Below, piece by piece: positions 21,596-24,623 of a DNA stretch of 34,645 nucleotides (its first letter is position 1; every line of letters begins with the position of its first letter). The stretch comes from Lentisphaerota bacterium. GTDB lineage: Bacteria > Verrucomicrobiota > Kiritimatiellia > PWTM01. The stretch is taken from the NCBI GenBank assembly GCA_016873715.1, contig VGWF01000043.1, positions 1 through 34,645 of the forward strand. Direction: 5' to 3'. The position numbers and the translations under genes are program-made. The notes below the pieces were generated by a model, which had not been told where the DNA came from, made no database searches, and saw only the letters and a program-made list of their open reading frames with translations.

Positions 21596-22393
21596 TCACT
21601 CCCGCCGGGTCAGGCGGGCGACGGCGAAGAGGGCGGCGTTGACGAGAACGATGGCCGAGCCGGCGGGCACATCGAAGAGGTAGGCGGCGGCGATGCCGGC
21701 GAGGATCGACCCGGTGCCGACGGCGACCGCGACCGCGAGTGCGCCGCGGAAGCTGCGCGCGACCTGCAGGGCCGTCGCCGCCGGGAAGATCAGGAGGCTC
21801 GAGACCAGCATCGTGCCGACCACGCGGATGCCGAGGACGACGGTCAGCGCCGTCAACGCCGCAAGGGCACGGTCGAGCCGCTTCACCGGGACGCCCGCGG
21901 TGCGCGCGTGTTCGGCGTCGAACGCCATCGCGAAGAGCTGACGGCGGAAGCGCAGCAGCACGGCGCCGACCGCCGCGGAGAGGCCGACGGCCACGCCGAC
22001 CTCCGCCCGGGTGACAGACAGGATGTCGCCGAAGAGATAGCTGAAGAGGTCGACGTTGAAGCCGCCGCCGAGGCTGGCGAAGAGGACGCCCGCCGCGACG
22101 CCGGTCGCGGAGACCATGCCGATGGCCGCGTCGCCGAACATCCCGCCGCGCTCCGGGAGCTTCAGGATGAGCAGCGAGGCCAGCACCGCCAGCGGCACCG
22201 CGACCGCGAGCGGCGGCAGAGAGAGCAGCAGCGCGAGGCCGACGCTTCCGAACGCGAAGTGGGCGAGGCCTTCGCCCATCATCGAGCAGCGGCGCAGCAC
22301 GAGGAAGACGCCGAGCAGCGCGCACGCGGCGGCGACGAACAGGCCCGCGGCCAGGGCGCGCTGCATGAAGCCGAACTGGAGGGCCTCGATCAT
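21596..22393 (-). CDS. znuB: Zinc/manganese ABC transporter permease (ZnuB-type)
   Basis: This is a 265-residue hydrophobic protein of the ABC-3 family with roughly seven to eight membrane segments. It starts MIEALQFGFMQRALAAGLFVAAACALLG and contains the conserved RRCSMMGEGLAH segment and VVGTMLVSSLLIFPAATA near the C-terminus. It forms the inner-membrane channel for a divalent metal, most likely zinc given the His-rich binding protein. It is last in the operon, and its ATG overlaps the ATPase stop by 4 bp. The alternatives are manganese or iron transporters of the same family. Confidence 0.88.
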   Translation of the reverse strand: MIEALQFGFMQRALAAGLFVAAACALLGVFLVLRRCSMMGEGLAHFAFGSVGLALLLSLPPLAVAVPLAVLASLLILKLPERGGMFGDAAIGMVSATGVAAGVLFASLGGGFNVDLFSYLFGDILSVTRAEVGVAVGLSAAVGAVLLRFRRQLFAMAFDAEHARTAGVPVKRLDRALAALTALTVVLGIRVVGTMLVSSLLIFPAATALQVARSFRGALAVAVAVGTGSILAGIAAAYLFDVPAGSAIVLVNAALFAVARLTRRE

Positions 22394-23184
22394 TGCGGGC
22401 CGAGGCCTCCGGGGCAGCCGTGCTGGTGGCAGACCATGTGCTGTTGGAATTCGCCAAAGCGTTGCGTCATGGCGGGCGAGGCGCAGAAGTCGGCGAACGA
22501 ACCGAAGAAGACCAGCGAGCGGTCGAGGTAGAGCAGCTTCGATGCATGGTGCCCGATCGTGGCGCTGTCGTGCGTGACGAGCAGGATCGTGGTCCCGCGC
22601 TCGCGGTTCCACGCGCCCAGGGTCCGGTAGAAGTCGTCCCGGTAGACCGGGTCGAGCGCGACGGTGGGCTCGTCGAGCAGCAGCAGGTCCGGCTCGGCGG
22701 CGAGGGCGCGCGCAACGAACACGCGCTGGCGCTGTCCTCCGGAGAGGCTGCCGACCGGCGTGCGGCGCAGGTCGGCGATGCCCGCGGCGGCCAGGGCGCG
22801 CTCGACCGCGGCGCGATCCGCCGCCGGAAGCCGCATGCGCCCGGCGGCGTGCGGCAGCCGTCCGCAGGCGACGATCTCCTCGACCGTCGCCGGGAAGCGC
22901 GGCATCGGCGGGGTGGTCGACTGGGGCAGGTAGCCGATCCGCCGCCACTGCCGGAACGAGGCGGCGGGCTCGCCGAACAGCTCCAGGCGGCCCTCCGGCG
23001 GCGGGGAGAGCCCGAGCAGCGCGCGGATCAGGGTGGTCTTGCCCGACCCGTTCGGGCCGACGACGCCGACGTAGTCGCCCGGCCCGACGCGGAAGCTGAC
23101 GCGGTCGAGAACCGCGGCGCCGCCGAACCGGACCGTGAGGTCTTTCGCCACGACCGGCGCGACCGGCTGGACGGGCGCCGTCAT
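22390..23184 (-). CDS. znuC: Zinc ABC transporter ATP-binding protein (ZnuC-type)
   Basis: This is a 264-residue ABC ATPase. Walker A is GPNGSGKTT, the Q-loop is GYLPQ, the signature LSGGQRQRV, Walker B LLLLDEP and the switch histidine lies in LVTHD. It powers metal uptake with the permease encoded next. The C-terminal extension QQHMVCHQHGCPGGLGPQ is rich in Cys and His and might bind metal, a possible local sensor or store. The start lies in the 4-bp overlap with the end of the binding-protein gene. A longer open frame upstream only reads through that gene. Confidence 0.9.
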   Translation of the reverse strand: MTAPVQPVAPVVAKDLTVRFGGAAVLDRVSFRVGPGDYVGVVGPNGSGKTTLIRALLGLSPPPEGRLELFGEPAASFRQWRRIGYLPQSTTPPMPRFPATVEEIVACGRLPHAAGRMRLPAADRAAVERALAAAGIADLRRTPVGSLSGGQRQRVFVARALAAEPDLLLLDEPTVALDPVYRDDFYRTLGAWNRERGTTILLVTHDSATIGHHASKLLYLDRSLVFFGSFADFCASPAMTQRFGEFQQHMVCHQHGCPGGLGPQ

Positions 23185-24137
23185 TTCGCGCCCAGGCTCT
23201 CCCGCAGCTTCGCCAGGTTGGCGCGTTGGAGGGACAGGTAGGTTGCGCCGGCCCGCTGCTCGTCGGCCGTGCGGTTGTGGATCCCGTGCAGCAGTTCGAG
23301 GCGCGCGCCGGCCTCGTCGGCCAGCACGCGGGCGACGCGCGGCTCGATCAGCTCCTCGTGGTAGACGACGCGGGTGCCGAGTTCGCGCATCCTTCGGACG
23401 AGGGAGGCGAGGGCGCGGGGGCCCGGCTTCGCGTCGGGCGAGAAGCCCTCGTAGGGCGACACGAAGTCGAGTCCGTAGCGCCGCGCGAAGCGGCCGAAGG
23501 CCGGATGGCCGCCGTAGACCACGGTACGGCTCGCCGCGCCGCGCACCAGGGTCTCGAAGTCCGCGTGAAGCGTGCGCAACTCCGCGACGTAGGCCTCGGC
23601 GCGCTGCCGGTAGCCGCCGGCGCCGTCCGGGTCGGCTGCCGCGAAGGCCGTGGCGAGCGCCTCGACGACCCCGGCCGCGGCGGGCGGATCGAGCCAGAAG
23701 TGCGGGTCGGTGTCCCCGGCCGGGCCGTGGGCATGGCCGTGGTCGCACGCCGGCCCGTGGAGGTGGGCGGCATCGGGCGGGGCGCCGGTGGACGCGAGCG
23801 GCGTCACGTGCCGGTCGGCCTGGAAGAGCCTCGCGCCGGCCAGTCCCGCGCCGGCGGCCAGGTCGGCGGCCCAGGGCTCCATGGCGGGGCCGCAGAAGAC
23901 GAAGAGTCCGGCATCGCGCAGGCGGGCGACGTCCCGCGGGCTCGGCGCGAACGTGTGGGCCTCGACCCCCGGCGGGAGCAGCTGGAGAACCTCCACGCGG
24001 TCGCCTCCGACGGCGCGCGCCCAGTCGGCCAGGGGGAAGATGGTGGTCACGACGCGGAGACGCGCTGCGTCCGGGGCCGCGACGACGGCGGTCGCGGCCA
24101 GGGCCAGGGCCGCCGCGGCATGGCGGGGGGCCCTCAC
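23181..24137 (-). CDS. znuA: Zinc-binding periplasmic protein (ZnuA-type)
   Basis: This is a 318-residue cluster A-I binding protein with a signal peptide (about 1-21). Metal-ligand positions include H61 in EAHTF and H146 in DPHFWLDP, with a third His in GGHPAFGRF. A His-rich loop (residues about 125-138, HLHGPACDHGHAHG) sits before the second ligand; such a loop marks zinc-specific members. It delivers zinc to ZnuBC. The GTG start at 24137 overlaps the stop of the ribbon-helix-helix gene (GTGA) and begins the signal peptide. Upstream residues in the same frame overlap that gene and are not conserved. Confidence 0.88.
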   Translation of the reverse strand: MRAPRHAAAALALAATAVVAAPDAARLRVVTTIFPLADWARAVGGDRVEVLQLLPPGVEAHTFAPSPRDVARLRDAGLFVFCGPAMEPWAADLAAGAGLAGARLFQADRHVTPLASTGAPPDAAHLHGPACDHGHAHGPAGDTDPHFWLDPPAAAGVVEALATAFAAADPDGAGGYRQRAEAYVAELRTLHADFETLVRGAASRTVVYGGHPAFGRFARRYGLDFVSPYEGFSPDAKPGPRALASLVRRMRELGTRVVYHEELIEPRVARVLADEAGARLELLHGIHNRTADEQRAGATYLSLQRANLAKLRESLGAK

Positions 24138-24424
24138 GAGCGGGGCCTCCGGTGGTGCGGTGCCGGGCGGTCCGCCGCGCAGACGAGGTGCAGCGCGTGG
24201 CAGTCGCCGCATTCCCTCATATCGTGGTGCTTGCGGAAGGTCTCCCAGTGCCGCTTCTGCTCCGGCGTGAAGACGCCGGAGCCGCCGCACAGCGGGCAGG
24301 CGTGCTCCAAGGCGTTCATCACGGCCGTGCGGATGAACTCCGAGCGGTTCGGGACCGCGCGCAGCGCGTCCAGCATCGCGGGCTCGGCCTTGAAGGTGAC
24401 GATCGACGGCTTTTTCGCGGGCAT
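24134..24424 (-). CDS. Ribbon-helix-helix regulator with Cys/His zinc-binding-like tail
   Basis: This is a 96-residue protein, first gene of the zinc transporter operon. Residues about 6-40 look like a CopG-type ribbon-helix-helix DNA-binding domain (SIVTFKAEPAMLDALRAV, then NRSEFIRTAVMNALE). Residues 43-82 carry CPLC (43-46), H66-H67, CGDC (72-75), H76, H79 and C82, a plausible zinc site. Position, overlap with znuA and an upstream dyad suggest a zinc-responsive repressor acting where Zur would act in other bacteria. That is inference; no Fur/Zur gene is in the window. The ATG at 24424 was preferred to one 45 bp upstream, because the upstream one lies across the operator. Confidence 0.75.
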   Translation of the reverse strand: MPAKKPSIVTFKAEPAMLDALRAVPNRSEFIRTAVMNALEHACPLCGGSGVFTPEQKRHWETFRKHHDMRECGDCHALHLVCAADRPAPHHRRPRS

Positions 24425-24442
24425 GGCGGTCTCCGCGGCCAG

Positions 24443-24461
24443 GGTAATACGAAGTGTTACC
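24443..24461 (-). promoter_or_regulatory. Operator-like dyad before the zinc operon
   Basis: GGTAATAC (24443-24450), a 3-bp spacer and GTGTTACC (24454-24461) form an inverted repeat with one mismatch, 18 bp upstream of the regulator ATG. On the minus strand it includes a -10-like TATTAC. It is AT-rich in a GC-rich setting, as expected for an autoregulatory site. Confidence 0.5.
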
Positions 24462-24623
24462 CCGCGCAAGCCCCAGGCCCCGGGAGACGAGGCCCGATCA
24501 TGCGCAGAGGGGCGGTCGGGCGGGAGGGTCCGAAGCAGTCCCCGCGCTACGCGCGAGGGTCATCTCCGGAATCCGGATCCGCCCCGGCGATGCGCTCCCG
24601 GGGGTGCTCGTCCCTCGCCGGGG

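Follow-up and report, generated by a model that had tools for sequence, protein, structure and literature searches.

Described regulators of zinc import include the Fur-type protein Zur and the MarR-type protein AdcR (PMC6103462, consulted as partial text). Another metal-dependent repressor, the ribbon-helix-helix (RHH) protein NikR, has a delta-proteobacterial box that reads GTGTTAC-N13/14-GTAACAC, according to the available part of the comparative study of Rodionov and colleagues (2004; PMC545781). For three delta-proteobacteria (G. metallireducens, Desulfuromonas and D. psychrophila), that same part reports znuABC genes lacking both Zur and a Zur site, for which the authors suggested either that zinc-specific regulation is missing or that 'another regulatory mechanism' is at work.

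The locus described here lies in a window of 34,645 nucleotides (the whole stretch of DNA analysed) and encodes, ahead of znuABC, a small protein that we hold very likely to be a zinc-responsive, autoregulating repressor of that operon, in which an N-terminal RHH domain is followed by a Cys/His domain resembling a zinc ribbon; this is an inference, no binding or expression data being at hand. Its gene (24134..24424, reverse strand, 96 aa) starts with an ATG at 24424, and its stop codon ends at 24134; the longest open reading frame opens further upstream, at a TTG at 24469, but it is the ATG that is conserved as start. The gene leads a tightly packed operon on that strand: its terminal GTGA overlaps by 4 nt (24134-24137) the GTG start of znuA (23181..24137), which encodes a zinc-binding periplasmic protein with a His-rich loop and matches Pfam ZnuA with 228.6 bits. 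There follow znuC (22390..23184, reverse strand), for the transporter ATPase, and znuB (21596..22393, reverse strand), for the permease, each overlapping the preceding gene and both identified from their translations and from the homologous genes in the znuABC operons of relatives. The original prediction, made from the window alone, had described the regulator gene as the first of a zinc transporter operon and as overlapping znuA, and it was right on both counts. Note that another ZnuA-type ABC operon is present in the same genome (L167; G000:C14:41694-42620), without the operator described below and preceded by a gene whose product reads as a His-rich outer-membrane-like protein.

The protein falls into two parts, both encoded on the reverse strand: a putative RHH DNA-binding domain (TFKAE...PNRSEFIR; codons 1-41, 24302..24424) and a Cys/His domain of the form C43-x2-C46...H59...H67...C72-x2-C75...C82, which runs into a variable tail (codons 42-96, 24137..24301). 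The CPLC and CGDC motifs with neighbouring histidines, pointed out from the start, were both recovered, with six His residues close by (H41, H59, H66, H67, H76 and H79). The CopG-like label given to the N-terminal part fared less well for the window protein taken alone, which matches PF01402 with 13.8 bits (cut-off 20.5), and better for the family, 73 of whose 94 members match at E<=0.1. The profile of the archaeal RHH family aCcr1 is matched at E<=0.1 by 92/94 members, weakly and over the N-terminal 30-40 residues, and the part that follows matches the DnaJ_CXXCXGXG zinc-knuckle profile, at the same threshold, in 86/94. No Pfam or NCBIfam match of the family exceeds its cut-off. In the window protein, for which both collections gave sub-threshold matches only, the zinc-ribbon profiles reach 18.8 of 28.6 bits (Lar) and 15.8 of 32.7 bits (DnaJ). 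The RHH fold of the window protein remains putative, as it rests on sequence profiles that stay below their curated cut-offs in that protein.

Structure prediction and structure searches added little on this point. The AlphaFold2 model of the monomer (pLDDT 84, pTM 0.55) has helices at residues 15-21, 27-40 and 54-63 and strands at 67-71 and 78-82; the first two helices fall in confident stretches, and the strand of an RHH fold would pair only in a dimer. A PDB structure search with this monomer (Foldseek at E<=0.001, re-alignment with VIA-align at Z>=2) returned nothing; as a lone small RHH monomer makes a poor query, we conclude nothing from this. PDB sequence searches yielded weak matches only, namely anti-TRAP, DnaJ zinc knuckles and a ferredoxin oxidoreductase subunit with the family profile, and PrnB with the N-terminal 42 residues.

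In the alignment of 94 members, the putative metal ligands are strictly or almost strictly conserved: C43, C46, H67, C72, C75 and C82 are invariant (94/94), H59 is retained in 93/94, and further invariant residues include F11, K12, N26, S28, F30, R32, Q56 and W60. The peptides used for the database scan (CPLC[GK]G[TS]G[IV] and [AGS][VI][PRN]NRS[ESA]FIR) bias conservation at C43, C46 and N26-R32 (the NRS.FIR block); the residues from Q56 on lie outside them. Four cysteines arranged as CxxC...CxxC are typical of structural ribbons and, in the absence of binding data, the domain could merely hold a zinc of structural function, or else a redox-sensitive site, in which case the protein would be a metal-blind autorepressor that keeps znuABC at a fixed or redox-dependent level. 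We find this improbable: the near-invariant H59, H67 and C82 provide three ligands beyond a four-ligand site, and metal sensing is favoured both by the near-exclusive linkage to zinc uptake and by the way in which this gene and a Fur-family gene replace one another in close relatives (see below). For a zinc-responsive repressor, our guess is that C43, C46, C72 and C75 would have a structural role, and H59, H67 and C82 a sensory one.

At E<=0.1, the window protein has 5 listed Pfam families, and neither these nor the 25 of 31 shown for the 94 members include PF01475 (FUR), the NikR C-terminal domain or a MarR family. The protein shares with Zur its expected role, the control of znuABC, and sister genomes have a Fur-family gene beside the homologous operon, but it differs from Zur in lacking PF01475, in its architecture and in its operator. 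AdcR, too, regulates zinc uptake without belonging to the Fur family (PMC6103462, partial text); it is, however, a MarR-family protein, and no MarR domain was reported in the window regulator. With NikR, the protein shares the principle of an RHH metal-dependent repressor and, going by the accessible part of PMC545781, a similar half-site (GTGTTAC), whereas it has a Cys-rich zinc-ribbon-like tail and no reported NikR C-terminal domain, the half-sites are 3 bp apart in its family instead of 13-14 bp, and the linkage is to zinc rather than nickel transport. Finally, the archaeal regulators aCcr1 and CdrS, to which the N-terminal 30-40 residues bear a weak profile likeness, have no Cys/His domain and are cell-division or cell-cycle regulators (for CdrS, the part of PMC7439475 at our disposal; for aCcr1, its NCBIfam description).

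We then assembled a non-redundant set of 95 loci, 20 from a search of the phylum (the window included) and 75 from a named genome collection. The original prediction had proposed a search of PVC genomes for the same gene pair; the pair and the dyad in fact recur across phyla, the regulator gene lying immediately before znuA (79 loci) or znuC (3 loci), on the same strand, in 82/95 loci, as judged by BLASTP with the window's proteins. Among the 13 other loci, one (L026) encodes a ZnuA-like protein left unscored by BLASTP, followed by znuC, and in three (L028, L055 and L102) the sequence ends within 260 bp. At L108, a gene read as outer-membrane-like and then znuABC come after the regulator; L058, L070, L075 and L080 are spirochaete loci in which the regulator gene is not the leader of znuABC; and no znu link is present in the 518 bp available for L069. 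In three Planctomycetota loci (L043, L053 and L095), the regulator and operator are followed by the gene of an unnamed polytopic, His-bearing membrane protein, a candidate new zinc transporter. None of its three sequences matches Pfam over cut-off, and the two that were scanned against NCBIfam have no match there.

The linked transporters also bear on the identity of the metal. Manganese carriers exist among ZnuA-family transporters, and manganese-type members of that family have a Glu at the third ligand position. The zinc-type residue, His, occupies this position in 79/79 linked ZnuA proteins, and 43/79 have a His-rich loop. These residues, together with Cys-rich ligands in the regulator that fit zinc, speak against the possibility that the regulator senses another metal (manganese, iron or nickel) carried by the linked transporter, a possibility that we rate as very unlikely, even though an RHH regulator, NikR, does sense nickel and the half-site resembles the delta-proteobacterial GTGTTAC (PMC545781, partial text). 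We infer that zinc is the signal.

The predicted operator, GGTAATAC-GAA-GTGTTACC (24443..24461, no strand assigned), lies 18 bp upstream of the start codon, and its core (24444-24460) is GTAWTAC-N3-GTAWTAC with 1 mismatch. The near-perfect dyad noted earlier at this distance was confirmed, its arms being complementary at 7 of 8 positions. The dyad alone was rejected as evidence, since one of this quality (7 of 8, spacer 0-10) arises in 320/1000 shuffles of the 60 bp upstream, a chance level. It is conservation across loci that makes the predicted operator real, the dyad by itself being unremarkable. Indeed, GTAWTAC-N3-GTAWTAC occurs with <=2 of 14 mismatches within 250 bp upstream of the regulator in 88/95 loci, compared to 0.15 of 95 in dinucleotide shuffles, and no other spacing of the half-sites between 0 and 15 is found in more than 19/95 loci (4/95 and 5/95 at spacings 13 and 14, vs 88/95 at spacing 3). 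The misses are L067 (3 mismatches) and L058, L061, L069, L070, L075 and L080 (>=4 mismatches); L061, with 4 mismatches, is linked to znuA yet has no site, and L069 has neither site nor znuA.

Taken as a case of this conserved motif, the dyad does exceed chance: it is the sole match at <=3 mismatches in the window (0.07 expected) and the sole match at <=1 mismatch in the 5.13-Mb genome, and the 748,751 bases around the best 80 of 166 loci of the collection contain only 2 extra sites at <=1 mismatch, one of them the promoter of znuA at L080. There is no enrichment in the window genome at <=2 mismatches (2 matches vs 3 in the control), and the second site found in this way (G000 C15:17210, 2 mismatches) was dismissed as being at control level. 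At one locus of the collection, a perfect operator (L056:4015-4031) precedes the regulator by about 2 kb; it comes after a gene read as hisF and is close to a promoter-like TTGACA.

TTGAC begins 8-12 bp ahead of the operator in 39/88 sites, which places the operator in the spacer between the -35 and -10 elements. In addition, the half-site GTAWTAC is nearly self-complementary and the centres of the two half-sites are 10 bp, i.e. one helical turn, apart, from which we infer that the operator probably accommodates a pair of RHH dimers, next to each other on the same face of the helix. In some loci (L078, L086, L093 and L101), a tandem pair of operators is present in the promoter upstream of the regulator.

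The operator model was assessed on two sets of held-out loci. The first set comprised 13 loci found later by profile search, of which 2 were duplicates, leaving 11 loci, none of them used to define the motif: all 11 have a site at <=1 mismatch, and a ZnuA- or ZnuC-like gene is present in the approximately 3.3 kb fetched in 11/11. The second consisted of the four spirochaete genomes in which the regulator is not the znuABC leader. Scanning them whole at <=1 mismatch gave 2, 2, 2 and 1 sites, one per genome being just upstream of znuA (4/4); in the fourth genome, znuABC is on the opposite strand, with some 2 to 4 kb between it and the regulator. The other sites in these genomes (L127, L130 and L131) were put down to chance, as they fall inside a coding sequence that reads as SAM synthetase, in the stretch encoding GNTKYYVNP (in L130, SNTKYYVNP). 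In a scan of 15 genomes for the operator, two genomes lent the model no support: G411 (that of L069) has no site, and G412 (that of L061) has 6 sites vs 5 in the control. Away from znuABC, a perfect operator of Desulfocarbo indianensis (L134:4010-4026) lies just upstream of genes whose products read as a small, His-rich protein and as a TonB-dependent receptor, a possible sign of a wider zinc regulon in this organism.

In a sample of 97 genomes of relatives, 4 carry the regulator gene, namely the window genome and three others from its family. The window genome (97.6% complete) has no match to PF01475 or the Fur superfamily, and no Fur-family match was found in the three other carriers (G002, G006 and G007). 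Three further genomes of this family without the regulator (G003, G004 and G005) have one Fur-family gene each, beside znuABC, and their znuABC loci have no operator-like site at <=3 mismatches; their znu proteins are 48-63% (G003 and G005) or 29-37% (G004) identical to those of the window. Two more genomes lack the regulator: G001 (83% complete), which has two Fur-family genes on contigs other than that of znuA, and G008 (68% complete), in which neither Fur nor ZnuA was found. The RHH protein thus appears to replace Zur in this genome, as originally proposed, with zinc binding, DNA binding and the direction of the response all inferred; a Zur gene elsewhere combined with a Zur box here, which would have refuted the proposal, did not turn up.

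This exchange does not extend to the whole phylum. In the phylum sample, in which 21/387 genomes carry the regulator, Fur-family genes are present in 15/21 carriers and in 285/366 non-carriers, and mutual exclusion at this scale was rejected. Some of the carriers' Fur-family proteins may sense iron or peroxide instead. Their frequency leaves room for a reading in which a different regulator, e.g. a Fur-family protein, uses the operator and the small protein is a passenger. We give this scarcely any credence, because the operator is present, and a Fur-family gene absent, in the window genome and its three relatives, the sister znuABC operons beside a Fur-family gene lack the operator, and the half-site spacing is the one expected for RHH dimers.

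If the small protein is indeed the zinc-responsive repressor of its own operon, it would bind the operator as two RHH dimers, probably adjacent on one face of the DNA. Given that the operator is located just after the -35 box in many relatives, the bound protein would block RNA polymerase. When zinc is sufficient, the zinc-loaded protein would bind and shut off its own gene along with znuABC; when zinc is scarce, it would let go of the operator, and znuABC could be expressed. The direction of this response, with zinc loading favouring binding and thereby repression, is our inference; it is based on the autoregulated position, the overlap with the promoter and the analogy with Zur and NikR.

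The family extends well beyond the relatives of the window genome. The scan of the named collection gave 166 confirmed loci, and the titles of the best 80 of these 166, which were fetched, include Planctomycetota, Lentisphaerae, Spirochaetes, Zixiibacteriota, Deltaproteobacteria, Desulfo- genera, Bacillota and Myxococcota. Carriers include Desulfocarbo indianensis and a metagenome-assembled genome of Victivallis vadensis. In a sample around the Desulfocarbo genome, 13/247 genomes have the regulator, all with strong matches.

No description of an RHH regulator of zinc uptake was found in the open-access literature, as far as titles and the beginnings of abstracts reveal, subscription papers and database annotations being outside the scope of the search; the portion of PMC5387054 checked for 'CopG' only tabulates an unrelated-looking gene. 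Within this scope, the earlier remark that no zinc sensor of this type had been described still stands, and the novelty of the protein is probable, not proved. We think it likely that the family constitutes a third type of zinc-uptake regulator beside Zur and AdcR: RHH-zinc-ribbon repressors that have a 17-bp operator of their own and occur in Verrucomicrobiota/Lentisphaerae, Planctomycetota, Spirochaetota, Zixiibacteriota, Desulfobacterota, Myxococcota and some Bacillota. On this reading, which we hold likely as a whole, the repressor and a Fur-type protein have traded places at one and the same operon inside a single bacterial family, and the new type could explain the delta-proteobacterial znuABC operons for which no regulator could be recognized in 2004. 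If so, it would be a third solution to the control of zinc import and would provide a direct regulatory handle in phyla whose regulators are poorly known. It could fill the 2004 gap as stated in the available part of PMC545781; its presence in those very delta-proteobacteria is not established. With its specificity, the operator can serve to annotate zinc regulons and to find new zinc genes, such as that of the unnamed Planctomycetota membrane protein.

In a sample around one Planctomycetota genome, 16/246 genomes gave a match: 8 strong (E <=8.1e-32), 7 diverged (E 2.3e-13 to 1.2e-15) and 1 doubtful, which has internal stops. A diverged sister subfamily of Planctomycetota (L182, L184 and L185) has the pattern TFRVDxHLAEAL...CPxCxGxG...CxCC...CxHC..DHxH. 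The gene that comes next encodes a relative of the unnamed membrane protein of L043, L053 and L095 at L182, and a protein read as MerC-like at L185.
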